A program made the position numbers and the translations under genes. Below, one piece after another: positions 401 through 6,186 of a stretch of 6,186 nucleotides of DNA; the stretch's first letter is position 1; each line of letters begins with the position of its first letter. The DNA comes from a bacterium. Its GTDB lineage: Bacteria > Bacillota_I > Bacilli_A > Mycoplasmatales > Mycoplasmoidaceae. Below the pieces are notes generated by a model. That model was not told the DNA's origin, searched no databases, and saw only the letters and a list, made by a program, of their open reading frames with translations. The stretch covers positions 1 through 6,186 of the forward strand of contig JAGBPV010000094.1 in NCBI GenBank assembly GCA_017633195.1, given 5' to 3'.

Positions 401-1474
401 TTACTTATTTTGATATTGTATATAAGCTTCATCTATAAGTTTTTTTAATTCAGGAACTAATTCTTTTTCATCACAATTTTTATAAATTTTTCCTTTTTTA
501 AAAATAATTCCTTTCCCGTTTCCACCAGCAATTCCAATATCTGCTTCTTTTCCTTCACCAATTCCATTTACAATACAACCTAAAATTGCTATTTTTAAAG
601 GAAATTTCATACTCTTAGTATACTCTTCAATTTCTCTTACTACATTTCATAAATCATAATTAAGTCTTCCACAAGTAGGACAAGAAATTACATCAACTTG
701 ATTAGTTTCAACTCCAGTTGAATATAATAAAGCTTTTGCAACTTTTACTTCTTGCACTGGATCATCTGTTAGTGAAATGCGAATAGTATCACCAATTCCT
801 TTAATTAACAAACTGCTTAATCCAACACAACTTTTAACTGTACCATTCATAAAAGTCCCAGCTTCTGTAACTCCTAAATGCAATGGATAATCAAACATCA
901 AACTTGCTTTTTCATAAAGTTCAATAGTTCATAAAGGATTTGTTGCTTTCAAAGATAAAACTAAATTATAAAATCCATGTTTTTCAAATAGTTTCACTGC
1001 TCTATCTAATGCTTCTAACATTCCTTGAATTGTTGCACCATGATATTTATCAATTAAATCTAATGGAATTGATCCAGAATTTACTCCAATTCTTATGACA
1101 ACATTTTTTTCTTTTGCTGTATTTATTATTAATTTTAATTTTTCTTCATCAGTAATATTTCCTGGATTAATTCTGATTTTTTTAATTCCTAATTCCATTA
1201 CTTTTAAAGCATATAAATAACTAAAATGAATATCAGCTATTAATGGTACTGGTGAAAGTTTTATAAGTTCAGTTAAAGCATTAATATCATTATCATCTAA
1301 TACTGCAACTCTTACTAATTCACACCCTTCATTAACTAATGCATTAATTTGTTTTAAGGTTGCTTGTACATCATGAGTTTTTGTAGTAGTCATTGACTGA
1401 ATAACAACTTTATTTTGATGTCCTATTTGAACATTATCTACTTTTATTAATCTGGTTTTTTCTCTTTGTAACAT
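401..1474 (-). CDS. ispG: 4-hydroxy-3-methylbut-2-en-1-yl diphosphate synthase (IspG/GcpE), MEP pathway
   Basis: The 357-residue product matches bacterial IspG over its whole length. It catalyses the penultimate MEP-pathway step, reductive ring opening of MEcPP to HMBPP, in the cytoplasm with electrons from a ferredoxin or flavodoxin. The N-terminal TIM-barrel part carries [14 protein letters not shown] (about 23-36), ADIHF and KIRINPGN. The C-terminal part carries the [4Fe-4S] ligands: Cys265 and Cys268 in SCPTCGR, Cys300 in GCIVNGIGE, and Glu307. Spacing of these four residues equals that of the E. coli enzyme. Two TGA codons (W182 and W276) must be read as Trp. The usual NGPGE motif reads NGIGE here. 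The ATG at 1474 is supported by an AGGA 8 bp upstream and by alignment to the family N-terminus. The gene is divergent from mnmA. Its length is normal for the short bacterial form. Confidence 0.95.
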
Positions 1475-1482
1475 TTAAAAAA

Positions 1483-1486
1483 TCCT
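1483..1486 (-). promoter_or_regulatory. Ribosome binding site of ispG
   Basis: AGGA on the minus strand sits 8 bp before the ATG at 1474. It is the only recognisable Shine-Dalgarno-like element I found before the gene starts in this window, and it supports the chosen ispG start. Confidence 0.6.
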
Positions 1487-1500
1487 ATAAATGAGTTATT

Positions 1501-1506
1501 ATTATA
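1501..1506 (-). promoter_or_regulatory. Probable -10 box for ispG
   Basis: A consensus TATAAT on the minus strand lies 26 bp before the ispG ATG, giving a leader of about 20 nt that includes the AGGA site. No good -35 hexamer is visible at 16-19 bp spacing, which is common in mollicute promoters. In sequence this AT-rich the hexamer could occur by chance. Confidence 0.4.
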
Positions 1507-1576
1507 TTTTATTGTGTATTTATTTTATTAAATCTTGTTTAGTAAACATTTATATATAAATTAATGAATTTTATTT

Positions 1577-1582
1577 TATAAT
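1577..1582 (+). promoter_or_regulatory. Probable -10 box for mnmA
   Basis: A consensus TATAAT lies 41 bp before the mnmA ATG. Transcription starting about 7 bp downstream would begin at or near 1589, the first base of the stem-loop at 1589-1611. No convincing -35 element is visible. The AT-rich background limits confidence. Confidence 0.4.
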
Positions 1583-1588
1583 AATCGC

Positions 1589-1611
1589 AAATTCATTTAT
1601 TATATGAATTT
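1589..1611 (+). promoter_or_regulatory. Stem-loop in the mnmA 5' leader
   Basis: AAATTCAT (1589-1596) and ATGAATTT (1604-1611) form a perfect 8-bp inverted repeat around a 7-nt loop, ending 12 bp before the mnmA ATG. It could be an mRNA 5'-end hairpin, given that the predicted start point falls at its base, or a dyad operator for a regulator in the divergent spacer. No T tract suited to termination before the gene would make sense here. AT-rich chance pairing remains possible. Confidence 0.35.
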
Positions 1612-1623
1612 TTAATAATCTTT

Positions 1624-2766
1624 ATGTCTAAAAAAGTTGTAGTTGGTTTAAGTGGCGGAGTTGATTCTGCTGTTAGTGCTTATTTATTAAAAAAACAAGG
1701 ATATGATGTTATTGCAGTTTTTATGGAAAACTGGGATGATTATTTAAACAATGATATTTTAGGACATAAATTAGCTTATGAAAATAAAGGATGTAGTAGT
1801 AAACAAGATTTTATTGATGCTAGTAATGTTGCACAATTTTTAAATATTCCTATTTATAAAATTAATTTTGTAAAAGAATATTGAAATGATGTTTTTATAT
1901 CATTTTTAGAAGAATATAAAAAGGGAGTAACACCAAATCCTGATATTTTATGCAATAAATTTATAAAATTTGGAATTTTTAAAAAATATGTTTTAAAACA
2001 ATTTGAAGCTGATTTTATTGCTACTGGGCATTATGCAAATACTTATGTTGATGAAAATAATGTTGCTCATTTATTAAAAGCAAAAGATGAAAATAAAGAT
2101 CAAACCTATTTTTTGTGTGATTTAAACAATGAACAATTACATAATGTGATTTTTCCTTTAGCAAACTTATATAAAACTGAAGTTAGAAAAATTGCACAAG
2201 AAATTAATTTACCTGTATGAAATAAAAAAGATTCTACTGGAATATGTTTTATTGGAGAAAGACATTTTTCTTTGTTTTTAAAAAATTATTTAACATCAAA
2301 AATAGGAAACATTATAGATATTAAAACTAAAAAAATTTTAGGAACACATGAAGGAACATCATTTTATACCATTGGACAAAGAAATGGTTTAAATTTAGGT
2401 GGATTTCATACAAGATATTTTGTGTGTAAAAAAGATCTAAAGAATAATATTTTGTATGTAGCAAGTATTGAAGATGAAGAAAAGTATTTATTACATAAAT
2501 TTGTTTATATTAAAACATTGAATAAAATTAATATTGATAATTGAAATGATTTAAATTTATCTGTAAGATTTAGACATAGACAAAAACTTATTAAATGTAA
2601 AGTGATATTAGATGATTTAAAAAATAATTTAATAATTGAATGTGAAAATGAAGTTAGAGCAATAACTCCTGGACAATATGCTGTGTTTTATTTAGATGAT
2701 GAATGCATTGGGGGAGGAATTATTAATAATTCATCAAAGAATCTACAAAATAAACTAAATAAGTAA
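1624..2766 (+). CDS. mnmA: tRNA-specific 2-thiouridylase MnmA
   Basis: The 380-residue product transfers sulfur to C2 of the wobble uridine (U34) of tRNAs for Lys, Glu and Gln, using ATP to adenylate the base. The N-terminal PP-loop ATPase motif SGGVDS is at residues 10-15, followed by MENWDDY and GCSSKQDF. The two redox-active cysteines are present: Cys110 in TPNPDILCN and Cys208 in [16 protein letters not shown] (133-138), DQTYFL (159-164) and YTIGQRNGL, which marks the central domain, also match; the C-terminal beta-barrel ends with GGGII. Three tryptophans (W87, W199, W307) are TGA and W37 is TGG. The protein is slightly longer than the E. coli enzyme because of a 14-residue Asn/Lys-rich tail (367-380). 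That tail is exactly the part that overlaps the convergent gene. No Shine-Dalgarno sequence precedes the ATG; the start is fixed by the family N-terminus. Confidence 0.96.
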
Positions 2767-4603
2767 ATAAGATAATTATTAATTTAGTTGCATGTTCTTC
2801 ATTTATGTCTAATGATAAATCTGTTGAATCATATAATGAAGGATGAATATATTTATTTCTAATATTAAAACCATTAATATCAGATAAAAAGAAATATAAG
2901 CAATCAAAGAAAATCACATTTTCTTCATTACTTTTTTCACCTTTTTGTTTTATTAAATAAGTCTTGATTTTTTCAATTATATCTTTTAATTTTAATAAAT
3001 TATTTTCATCATTTTGAGTTGATTCAACTTTTATATCATCTTTATTAATAATATTATTTATAAGATAAATAAAAATGTTTTCAAATTGTGGTAAGAAAAT
3101 GTAAATAAAAGGTAAATAATTATTATCTTCAAAGTTACTTTTCATGCTTGCAATAGAATTTACAAAATGCGTATTTAATAATAATTTAAATGATGTATTG
3201 CTAATAATATTGTTTAATAAAATTTTTTTTGGAATTTTATCTAAACTATAAAATAAATCTTCTAATAAATTATTTAAAAGATTATTAAATAATTCTTTAG
3301 AAAATATATCAATTCTTTTATTATTTTTATCTTTTAGTATATATTGGATTGTGGAATCAATTGAATTTTTCTTTTTTCTTTGAGATAATATAAATTTAAA
3401 GAAAGGCATTACTTTTTTATCAACAAAATTTTTTACAATTTCTTCAGCTTCATTAATTGGAGAAATTAAAATATCTTTAATTAAAATTTGTTCATTACTT
3501 GCTACTTCAACTAAATCAATTTTAATAGGAACGATATTTAAATGATTATTAATAACAATACTAGAAGTTTCTTTAATTGACTCATCTTTTAATACGCTTC
3601 TAATAGTTGCAACATTATTTGAATTTAAATGATTAATTGATGCTTTATCAACTAATAAAGAATTTGTTTCTTTAGATTCTTCAACAACACTTCTAGTTGA
3701 AATTATTTGTGAACTAGAGTGATTTGAAACAGAAGTTTTAAATACATTACTGTTTAAGATAATTGTATTATCTTGTTCACTAAGTGTTGTTTTAATTAAA
3801 GATGAATAAGATTCTTTTTGAGTTTCATTGTGATTAAATTCAACTATAACTTCATCTGTATTTAATGATGAAGATGATAAATTGTTATTTAATGTAACAT
3901 TTTTATTATCCTTAATTAATTTATCTTGTAATTCTATAATTTTGTTGTTAATTCTTTTATTTTGTTTTGAAGATAAATTTCAATTTTTTACTATATTATT
4001 AAAAAGTTCAATAATTTGAGCTTGTATGTCAAATAATTGATACTTTATAAAAAATGAAGCATTAAAATTTAAGAAATCATCATTTTGATAATATGACCTA
4101 TTATTCTTTAAAAAATTGATTATTTCATCTAATAAAAAGTTTTGATTAGTTTCATCTAAAGAAATGAAAAAATCTTGATATTCTCATATTTTTGATTCAA
4201 AAAATAAATGAAACAATTTCTTGTCTTTAAAAAAATCAATCAGTTTATTAATGCATTTATTATAAATCTTGGTGTTAATAAAATTAGGTTGCTTTAAGAA
4301 CAAAAAACATAGTTTTTCTGTATAGTCTAATGGTAAAAAGTTTTTAATTTCATTTAAAACATTAATAAAACTTTTATAAAATTCATCAGAATTATTTTTA
4401 AAATCAGTGTACAAAAAATTACAAAGTAAATAATTAAAATACTTTTTAGGTTTCTTAATATCTTCTTTATATTTTAAAACTTCTTTAAATTCTTCATGAG
4501 TACTTAAGAAATTAGAAATGATGAGATGATCAAAATTTTTATCAAGAAATAATTTTGATAAATTTATGTATTCATCTATATCTTTTGTACTTACATCAGG
4601 CAT
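2723..4603 (-). CDS. Large helical protein with C-terminal HEPN-like R-x4-H motif (DUF4209-like); possible RNase or defence protein
   Basis: This is a 626-residue protein when TGA is read as Trp (W140, W208). ATG 4603 is the first start after an in-frame TAA at 4619-4621. Residues 1-210 look all-helical, with repeating Leu/Phe/Tyr patterns like TPR- or HEAT-type scaffolds. Residues 211-232 could form a short coiled coil. Residues 238-356 are a Ser/Asn/Thr-rich linker containing an imperfect two-copy repeat. Residues 370-626 are a second helical domain with FLPQFENIF (Glu508) and GFNIRNKYIH, where R582 and H587 fit the R-N-x3-H form of the HEPN active site. The last helix (about 608-623) is strongly hydrophobic and could be a buried helix or membrane contact. 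Known HEPN proteins are often metal-independent RNases in abortive-infection and toxin systems. Assignment to DUF4209 is from memory of its motifs. No signal peptide is seen. The C-terminus has a paralogue at 5923-6186. Function is inferred only. Confidence 0.6.
3536..3697 (-). repeat. Imperfect two-copy internal repeat in the linker of the HEPN-like protein
   Basis: Residues 303-327 (DNA 3623-3697) and 334-356 (DNA 3536-3604) share the pattern R-S-V-x-x-(E/D)-(E)-S-x-K-E-T-x-S ending in N-H-L-N. Copies begin TRSVVEESKET and IRSVLKDESIKET. The first copy is about two residues longer. The unit falls in the Ser-rich low-complexity linker between two helical regions, so it may set linker length or be a binding motif. 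Confidence 0.55.
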
Positions 4604-4626
4604 AATAATAAATAAACATTATTTAC

Positions 4627-4632
4627 ATTCTA
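4627..4632 (-). promoter_or_regulatory. Possible -10 box for the HEPN-like gene
   Basis: TAGAAT on the minus strand lies 23 bp before the ATG at 4603. At 18-bp spacing upstream is ATGAAA (4651-4656), a weak match to a -35 element. There is no Shine-Dalgarno sequence before this gene. The 185-bp gap to the glycosyltransferase and this element suggest the gene can be transcribed on its own. Chance occurrence is possible. Confidence 0.25.
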
Positions 4633-4707
4633 ACAAAATAAAACTTATATTTTCATAAATAATGATTTTAAATAAATTTTTAGAATAAAAAATGAACTAA
4701 TAAATTT

Positions 4708-4742
4708 AATAATATTTATAAAAAAACTTTTATTTTATTATT
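4708..4742 (-). terminator. Possible AT-only hairpin terminator after the glycosyltransferase
   Basis: AATAATA (4708-4714) pairs with TATTATT (4736-4742), and the inner bases pair further with mismatches to give an imperfect, purely A/T stem around a short A/C loop. It begins 46 bp past the glycosyltransferase stop on the minus strand. Rich T runs on both strands would allow action in either direction. The stem is weak and could be chance in this composition. Nothing else is visible in the 4604-4788 spacer apart from the possible promoter of the next gene. Confidence 0.25.
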
Positions 4743-4788
4743 TGTAAATTTTTATGTTATTAGAGATATTTATTAAGATTACTATTTT

Positions 4789-5913
4789 TTAATTATTATT
4801 TGAAATTAAAGCATTGATTACATTATTTCATTTATTTTCAAATTCATTTGTATTTAATTCTTTAATTGCAAATTGATAACAGTTATTAACTAATTTTTCA
4901 TAATCTTGGTAACTTATATTTTTAAATTCATTAATCATTAAACTTGCTTCTTTAGAACTATATTCTTTAGGAATTAATAAACCATTATTATAAGAAGTTA
5001 AATATCTTGCAGCAGGATAAGTGTTTCTAATAATTATTGGTGTACATAAAGAAATTGCTTCAACCAAAGAATAACTAAATCCTTCTGTTTTTGAAACTAA
5101 AATCATATACTTAGCTTCATTTAATTTTTGTATAACTTCACTACGATCTAATTTATTTTTATAATTTGATATTTTTATATCAGTTTCAATTGGCCCATAT
5201 ACATCAATATCTAATTGATATAAATCATTTAATTCATTAATAAAACTAATATTTTTTTGATAATCATTAATTCTGCCGATATAAATAATTTTATTTTTAT
5301 CAAACTTTTGTTTTAAGTTCTTTAAAGTATTCTTGTAATTTTGTTTAATAAAATCTAAATTATAACTACTTAATGGAATAAAAAAATATCTTTTATTTTC
5401 ATCATAATAATTTAATTCATATTCATCATATAAAACTAAATTTTTTGCAAATAAAAAAGGATTTTCATAACCAAAATCTTTTAAGATTTGATGTTCATAA
5501 AGTTTAGGTTCAAATTGTTGTACAAATAAATAATTATTTAATTGCATAACTTCTTTATCAAAATAATATGTGCAATCAATTATTAAATCATATTGAATTA
5601 AACGAACTTCTTTTAATAAAATTGCTCTTGTATTTTTAATATAATTAGTATTTAGCTTAATATTATTGAAATTAAACTCATTATTAGTAGCTTTTTCTAA
5701 TTCAATTTCTCTTTTCAAGCTTTTTAAATTTAAAAAATGTAAATGATCATTATTTAATTTTCTTTCAAAAAATAATTTATTTGATTCAAAAAAATAAAAT
5801 ACATCTACATCATGATTTTTATTTAATAAAAAATAACATAATTTATAAGCATAATTACTAGTTCCATTAATTTCAAAGATATGTTTTGGAACTAAGATTA
5901 AAATTTTGTACAT
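4789..5913 (-). CDS. Family 4-type (GT-B fold) glycosyltransferase, substrate unknown
   Basis: The 374-residue product has the two-lobe layout of GT4 retaining glycosyltransferases, which move a sugar from a nucleotide-sugar to a lipid or glycan acceptor at the inner face of the membrane. The N-terminal lobe starts KILILVPK, followed by a Gly-containing loop (INGTSNYAYKL, 15-25) typical of the acceptor side. The C-terminal lobe has IIYIGRINDYQKN (209-221, with G213 and R214), VYGP (238-241) and the donor-site E-x7-E motif in EGFSYSLVEA (E277 and E285). W362 is a TGA codon; without it the last 13 residues are lost. There is no signal peptide or membrane segment. Length is typical of the family. 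The ATG at 5913 follows the upstream paralogue's stop by 9 bp, so the two are probably cotranscribed. Mollicutes use such enzymes for glycolipids or capsule; which one applies here cannot be told. Confidence 0.85.
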
Positions 5914-5922
5914 TTTATTTAC

Positions 5923-6186
5923 TTAGTATTTTTGTATTTCTACAAAGAAATTTAATAAGTAAAATAATAGCACAATTAAAAATTTACTTGTATTATTTTC
6001 ATCAATTTCTCAATTAAATGTATATTTATAATTTTCTTCATGATTATATTTATTTCTTAAATTAAAACCTGCAGTTTCATAAAAACAAAACTTTAAAAAA
6101 TTTAAAAAATTAAGATATTTTTCTTTATTTTTATATTTTTCTTTTTTTAAAAAATCAGTAATTGTTTCAATTCGATTAATCATTGA
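5923..6186 (-). CDS. HEPN-like protein, C-terminal part (paralogue of the 2723-4603 product), 5' cut by window edge
   Basis: Eighty-seven residues and a TAA stop (5923-5925) are visible, in a frame open to the window edge, with one TGA read as Trp (59th visible residue). It contains AGFNLRNKYNH, the same R-x4-H motif (visible residues R44 and H49) as GFNIRNKYIH in the 626-residue protein. It ends in a similar hydrophobic helix (FLIVLLFYLLNFFVEI). The helix before the motif also aligns, with a pattern of Lys-rich sequence, then aromatic residues FxxFLKFCFYE. An ATG at 6181-6183 could start an 86-residue protein, but alignment to the paralogue continues to the edge, so a longer gene is more likely. 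It lies 9 bp upstream of the glycosyltransferase in the same direction. An RNase role is inferred from the motif only. Confidence 0.65.

Follow-up and report, generated by a model that had tools for sequence, protein, structure and literature searches.

The window analyzed here, the whole 6,186-nucleotide (nt) stretch of contig JAGBPV010000094.1 (20% G+C), carries two genes, named A and B, which lie on either side of a glycosyltransferase gene (GT). Judged from protein and profile comparisons, A and B are full-length paralogs, and they are probably HEPN/DUF4209-like proteins, that is, diverged members of the HEPN superfamily that are not filed under PF13910. The B alleles compared were block mosaics between strains, and the tested A pairs were not. 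Our preferred explanation, to which an even chance is given, is that A and B form a duplicated pair of auto-inhibited HEPN ribonucleases (RNases) used in a stress or phage response.

The genes of the window were open only when TGA was read as tryptophan (genetic code 4). Under this code the three frames were present on one strand in the order HEPN-like, glycosyltransferase, HEPN-like, as had been stated in an earlier interpretation of this DNA made from the letters alone (the sequence-only reading). The features concerned were:

2723-4603, minus strand: gene A, HEPN/DUF4209-like, 626 amino acids (aa); code-4 open reading frame (ORF), 8 database relatives, DUF4209 profile match
2843-2872, minus strand: GFNIRNKYIH, the Rx4H motif of A; position checked
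4604-4788, minus strand: intergenic gap of 185 bp between GT and A; measured on the window
4789-5913, minus strand: GT4-type glycosyltransferase (GT), 374 aa; PF00534 match and relatives
5914-5922, minus strand: gap of 9 bp between the stop of B and the start of GT; measured on the window
5923-6186, minus strand: gene B, C-terminal 87 residues only, continuing past the window edge; code-4 open frame and relatives
6040-6069, minus strand: GFNLRNKYNH, the Rx4H motif of B; position checked

A and B Are Full-Length Paralogs From an Old Duplication

Eight relatives were found from the B piece, and one of them, P0009 (518 aa), ended with all 87 residues of this piece and was used as the full-length stand-in for B; untruncated B relatives measured 514–523 aa. 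P0001, a near-identical full-length relative, represented A. The C-termini of A and of the B piece shared 35% identity over 62 aa in the protein comparison (E 1e-7). P0001 and P0009 aligned over two stretches, one N-terminal (E 2e-12) and one C-terminal (E 5e-10), and the A and B groups matched over 496 columns when compared as profiles (probability 99.6, E 5.5e-25). These two results indicated paralogy along the whole length, with an identity of only ~27–28%. Hence, the similarity extended well beyond the short motif, and the paralogy proposed by the sequence-only reading stood.

That reading had also drawn attention to the motif segments at the DNA level, and 3 of the 30 bases indeed differed between 2843-2872 and 6040-6069. 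The best 30-mer match was 27/30 for A against B, 25/30 for the neighboring mnmA against B and 23/30 for GT against B, and codon-shuffled A reached up to 26/30 against B (27 was reached in 0 of 200 shuffles). Since mnmA and the codon shuffles came so close in AT-rich DNA, the 27/30 match is weak alone and near chance, and it was rejected as a sign of recent copying.

In a tree of 15 sequences, the A rows and the B rows were separated by one branch with a support of 100/100, and rows from a second lineage were found within both groups (P0006 and P0007 with A; P0016, on a long branch, with B). Because each group contained such rows, the duplication most likely predates the split of the two lineages. 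P0006 (IKS57_03810) and P0016 (IKS57_03035) carry the tags of one source genome, and the paralogs and second-lineage rows were only 21–39% identical to A. The expansion by tandem duplication that had been suggested was therefore real as a duplication, but a recent tandem event was ruled out by the tree and did not agree with the low identity.

A and B Resemble HEPN Proteins of the DUF4209 Type

Each of the two proteins was predicted to begin with a helical solenoid that leads through a linker into a C-terminal helical bundle carrying GFNxRNxYxH. The parts of A were placed as follows:

2726-3451, minus strand: putative HEPN-like C-terminal helical bundle, residues 385-626; predicted local distance difference test (pLDDT) values and DUF4209 profile match
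3080-3091, minus strand: PQFE, residues 505-508, which supplies the conserved acidic residue of the helix that precedes the motif helices; aligned to PQxE of DUF4209
3452-3907, minus strand: linker, residues 233-384, predicted disordered; pLDDT <50
3899-4471, minus strand: predicted alpha-solenoid, residues ~45-235

In the AlphaFold2 (AF2) model of A, most ten-residue blocks of the C-terminal bundle had pLDDT values of 74–92, with dips at ~411–440, 521–540 and 591–600. The acidic residue was located in helix 497-519, the motif after helix 560-573, and the last helix at 602-625. This predicted order fits the HEPN arrangement of an all-alpha bundle with the acidic residue in helix 2 and the motif closing helix 3. 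The last helix was hydrophobic (Kyte-Doolittle 1.71 in P0001 and 1.78 in P0009), which is no special evidence of a membrane location because some ordinary DUF4209 proteins share it (2.31 in L052, 1.63 in L053 and 0.58–1.4 in several others).

All 15 sequences that reach the Rx4H motif carry it with a polar N following the R (as RNKYIH, RNKYNH or RNIYNH; P0008 ends before the motif), its R, N and H being invariant. FE, in the helix that precedes the motif helices, was likewise kept in 15/15 sequences reaching FE. According to PMC3710099, a polar residue after R in Rx4-6H is the form of active HEPN domains. The same paper assigns DUF4209 to the HEPN superfamily (C6orf70 type), with the Rx4-6H motif, tetratricopeptide repeat (TPR) fusions and restriction-related operons. 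A second HEPN motif, Ex3[KR], occurs in many families, though not in all.

A DUF4209 reference was assembled from 12 proteins (L052–L054, L063, L065, L066 and six of 20 plasmid records, L067–L072), each matching PF13910 at E ≤0.01. The joint profile of A and B scored 41.1 against it over 83 columns (E 3.7e-4 for the pair), with a probability of only 36.5. Reversed profiles scored 20.0 and 18.1, and 60 block shuffles of A+B gave a mean of 21.2 and a maximum of 29.7. With A alone, the score was 39.1 (E 5.3e-4). When 7 DUF4209 rows had been used at an earlier stage, the match covered residues ~493–587 of A with E 0.001 and a probability of 21.6, and its alignment stayed in register from before PQFE to RNKYIH.

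Several results weigh against this assignment. DUF4209 was the only Pfam family listed for A and for the B piece, and both remained under the curated PF13910 cut-off of 22.3 bits (12.7 and 13.1 bits, respectively); DUF4209 was absent from the rows at E ≤1 of P0009 and five other relatives. B alone scored 30.5 against the DUF4209 profile (E 0.0062), barely above the best shuffle, so that a HEPN reading of B depends on the motif it carries and on its being homologous to A. The E of Ex3[KR] was kept but its K/R was absent in 15/15 sequences, a residue present in 5 of the 7 DUF4209 rows (alignment A7). For A, Foldseek gave no match at E ≤0.001 in the PDB or among viral models; no HEPN structure was among the matches listed, which carries no weight because the C-terminal bundle was barely covered. 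Searching solved structures by sequence returned two rows for A+B, both at chance level, and nothing for GT. The HEPN-like identity claimed by the sequence-only reading thus gained from the motif, the predicted helix order and a DUF4209 match above its controls, but it fell short of the Pfam cut-off and of a significant fold match.

When set beside DUF4209/C6orf70 proteins, A and B were similar in size (518–638 aa here, 562–584 aa or more among the DUF4209 proteins) and in the succession of a helical N-terminal part, a conserved-E helix, a [G]xNxRNxxxH motif and a C-terminal helix. A solenoid followed by a C-terminal HEPN domain would also fit the TPR fusions that PMC3710099 reports for the family. 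They differed in scoring under the Pfam cut-off, in lacking a basic residue four positions after the conserved E, in having P, E or N after the motif H (frequently G in DUF4209), in the long disordered linker of A, and in occurring as a paralogous pair with a glycosyltransferase gene between them.

B Alleles Are Block Mosaics

The clustering of differences was evaluated with 5000 shuffles per pair or triple of sequences. A varied little within the close group (93–99% identity to the window), and in four A pairs the differences were unclustered (806–4127 of the 5000 shuffles were as clustered). Two A triples gave 5 runs against 6.5 expected (1329/5000) and 13 against 11.2 expected (4481/5000). 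P0004, which was left out of this test, dropped to 73–83% identity near one part of the linker; an insertion shared by P0004 and P0005 is located there.

The B sequences behaved differently. Of the 26 differences between P0009 and P0015 over 489 positions, 21 fell within one 40-residue segment (0/5000 shuffles), and clustering at 0/5000 was also obtained for P0009/P0013, P0009/P0011 and P0011/P0013, but not for P0009/P0014 (775/5000). In the triple of P0013, P0009 and P0011, P0013 mostly followed P0009 and then P0011, with 19 runs against 59.3 expected (0/5000). Three of the four B triples were at 0/5000 and one at 31/5000; these triples share rows and are not independent. Triples are better evidence of recombination than pairs, since uneven constraint alone can cluster the differences of a pair. 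By sliding identity, the most divergent blocks of B fell in the solenoid and the linker, the last ~120 residues were ~77–100% identical, and in P0015 a divergent block directly precedes the HEPN core.

Assembly chimeras of co-occurring strains are an unlikely source of these blocks. The named sources of the relatives, a “Mycoplasmataceae bacterium” (tags IIT97) and a “bacterium” (tags IKS57), are both metagenome-assembled genomes (MAGs), no isolate genome was among the sources listed, and the sharpest case, P0015, comes from a contig of 1,730 bases. Nevertheless, the four A pairs showed no such clustering, the contig that carries P0013 is 15,461 bases long, and most of the B triples, which are not independent, were mosaic as well.

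By eye, the ~45 residues of P0015 before IIAIFPRFE were unlike the other B sequences compared, which suggests a further unseen B allele or copy behind this block. The P0014 and P0015 entries end at a TGA that code 4 reads as tryptophan in the window; hence, the standard bacterial code was probably used when both were predicted.

The Glycosyltransferase and Its Linkage to A and B

GT matched PF00534 with 46.8 bits (cut-off 26.4), which confirmed a Glycos_transf_1 domain, and its sequence EGFSYSLVE fits the EX7E pattern, which we take to be the motif of GT4 glycosyltransferases. The conflict-associated family PF20706 was not passed (24.0 bits, cut-off 26); it is named in the precomputed domain lists of 11 of the 17 GT relatives.

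The order B–GT–A was seen directly only in the window. Beyond it, linkage was deduced from equal-length contigs among the database relatives (8 A rows, 8 B rows and 17 GT rows):

A and GT, 4 cases: P0001/P0017 (57,860), P0002/P0018 (62,643), P0003/P0019 (113,132), P0007/P0025 (9,663)
A and B, 1 case: P0005/P0011 (6,018)
B and GT, 2 cases: P0010/P0026 (1,913), P0016/P0024 (4,423)

A match was thus obtained for 5/8 A rows, 3/8 B rows and 6/17 GT rows, and the B gene P0010 and the GT gene P0026 carry neighboring locus tags (IIT97_02755 and IIT97_02750). Unmatched were P0004, P0006 and P0008 of A, P0009 and P0012–P0015 of B, and 11 GT rows; three of the unmatched B rows sit on contigs of 15–44 kb, where a neighboring GT would be expected. 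The tables seem to show the contigs of one representative only, so that a missing match is neither counter-proof nor support.

P0007/P0025 and P0016/P0024 are second-lineage cases of linkage to GT and lend some support to the view that A and B are each linked to the same GT in the sister lineage. Between the lineages, identity was 71–74% for GT, 35% for A and 39% for B. The sequence-only reading had left open whether GT was caught between the copies or belonged to the unit; this linkage favors the unit, although function is not shown thereby. B and GT are probably co-transcribed, with which their 9-bp gap is consistent.

A role of GT in metabolism is about as likely as one in conflict. That it is an ordinary metabolic GT4, for example of glycolipid synthesis, unrelated to its neighbors and bracketed by chance when the HEPN gene was duplicated, is a serious alternative whose chance lies somewhat below even. 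It would agree with the 185 bp that separate A from GT, with a best Pfam match to the general PF00534 while PF20706 stayed under its cut-off, and with the 11 of 17 GT relatives on contigs unmatched to A or B contigs, which include all those at 40–54% identity (P0028–P0033). It is less easily reconciled with the close spacing of B and GT, with a deduced linkage that survives in a lineage where A and B have diverged so far, or with the predicted conflict systems of PMC8195603, in which one STAND-based operon type has either GT4 or HEPN as its effector. As both domains are effectors there, their association here is suggestive. The window shares with those systems the presence of GT4 and HEPN domains and differs from them in having no STAND NTPase and in a stand-alone GT4 that remains under the PF20706 cut-off.

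Proposed Function and Alternatives

In the proposed pair of auto-inhibited RNases, A and B would each have a HEPN-like domain of the DUF4209/C6orf70 type at the C-terminus, joined through a linker to an N-terminal solenoid. Both would be metal-independent endoribonucleases in which the R and H of RNxxxH are catalytic. The solenoid might keep the RNase inactive and sense a trigger, either phage or stress; A and B might act as partners or in parallel, and the variable B would carry a changing recognition surface, A the constant one. The paralogy, the conserved motif and the mosaic blocks of B were observed in the sequences compared; RNase activity, auto-inhibition, partnership, trigger, co-transcription and a link of GT to the pathway are only what we infer under this proposal. 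A conserved RN...H core combined with changing sensor parts of B would be expected if recognition were under changing selection, and the faster divergence of A and B than of GT, together with the mosaicism of B, is as expected for arms-race genes. A more specific version appears improbable: a HEPN–GT4–HEPN immune cassette confined to a gut Mycoplasmataceae lineage, with A constant, the sensor and linker of B recombined between strains, the RNase core conserved and GT4 as a second effector or regulator.

This proposal has to be set against further results. Rapid divergence and mosaic alleles would suit relaxed constraint as well, and mosaics could arise during metagenome assembly. No PADLOC family was found for A or GT, and full-length P0009, P0011, P0001, P0007 and the GT P0017 gave none up to E 1; for the B piece, the sole match was to a homing endonuclease (15 bits, E 0.0046), which we attribute to chance. 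Within the 6.2-kb window, no gene was recognized as a restriction, antitoxin or mobile gene; a restriction-modification neighborhood is common for DUF4209 but not universal. Since neither PADLOC nor the neighborhood spoke for it, the defense or toxin role suggested by the sequence-only reading continues to draw on the HEPN literature.

The same proteins could instead be HEPN RNases of housekeeping or stress RNA turnover, acting on the cell's own RNA without a defense role, with the last helix perhaps holding them at the membrane, a location predicted for eukaryotic C6orf70; in PMC3710099, C6orf70/DUF4209 proteins are predicted to degrade RNA at the endoplasmic reticulum (ER) membrane. The hydrophobic last helix and the near identity of A within the close group would suit such a role, as would the G+C content at third codon positions (GC3), which in A (0.104) and GT (0.075) resembles that of ispG (0.075) and mnmA (0.073) and so gives no sign of recent import. 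We regard it as unlikely. A similar last helix occurs in some ordinary DUF4209 proteins, B is mosaic, and the lack of any convincing match in 320 (A) or 317 (A+B) genomes, subject to the caveat on the scan given below, is ill-suited to a core function. Less probable still would be catalytically silent RNA-binding or scaffold proteins that kept the HEPN-like fold and lost the RNase function. The weak DUF4209 scores and the loss of the basic residue of Ex3[KR] in every sequence, when most DUF4209 rows have it, point in this direction, but R, N and H remained invariant despite identities to A as low as those given above.

Occurrence in Other Genomes

Genomes of the order of G002, the genome that carries L002 (“uncultured Mycoplasmataceae bacterium”), were scanned; this order is taken to be Mycoplasmatales. 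The A profile gave only three ~15-bit matches in 320 of them (E 0.0015–0.0023), taken as chance; in 317, A+B gave 0 matches at E ≤0.001 and the GT P0017 gave 0 at E ≤1e-40. An empty scan of this kind (A and A+B), obtained without any positive genome, shows little. When relatives of A were sought in the genome collection, 47 stretches matched a pattern and none was confirmed, and the A profile (A2) gave 0 in the 11 genomes behind mnmA loci. The A+B and GT profiles found nothing at E ≤0.1 on the ORFs of 17 loci (13 of the 47 mnmA loci and 4 DUF4209 stretches). A had no match in phages and plasmids, and PHROGs gave only rows at E 0.06 for P0009 and P0007 and none for P0001.

PF13910 itself was over its cut-off in 4/317 genomes of the order (15/317 at E ≤0.01) and in 4/296 genomes of the class (E ≤1e-6). 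The DUF4209 genes of the order (L051–L054) resemble A and B in being stand-alone HEPN-type genes with NIRN motifs, and L052 and L053 are open over ~570 and ~525 codons; they differ in passing the Pfam cut-off, and L051 and L054 look broken. Neither a second copy nor a match to the GT of the window was found in the four stretches of 9–15 kb around them. The DUF4209 genes of two related genomes (L073:5451-6656 and L074:7319-8872) look broken, one being split into two open pieces and the other ending within RN...H. In L075 (4530-5339 and 7466-9172), one of the four stretches, ~2 kb separate the DUF4209 gene from a gene for an N6/N4 DNA methylase, and the ORF between them is presumably ribosomal-protein-like.

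To our knowledge, few defense or stress systems have been described for wall-less, reduced-genome gut mycoplasmas. Among literature titles and abstract openings, no paper on HEPN genes of these organisms was found, and those on HEPN with mollicutes and on GT4/HEPN conflict systems held no description of this arrangement. If the proposal is true, a constant and a variable HEPN protein with a GT would be a compact case of a sensor that diversifies while the nuclease core stays fixed, and this reading would be directly testable by protein expression.

Other Features of the Window

Two neighboring genes completed the window:

401-1474, minus strand: ispG; code-4 ORF, clear family assignment
1624-2766, plus strand: mnmA; code-4 ORF, clear family assignment

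mnmA and A are convergent, and their 3' ends overlap by 44 bp (2723-2766). The closest mnmA among 47 loci of the genome collection was 54% identical (L001, Ureaplasma sp. Hg1). The host is presumably a gut organism, and ispG, a gene of the methylerythritol phosphate (MEP) isoprenoid pathway, is retained in this low-GC genome. At 1-391 on the plus strand, the second frame is open from after a stop near 130 to a stop ending at ~391; this stretch has no ATG near its start and resembles the end of a gene that has decayed or been frameshifted.

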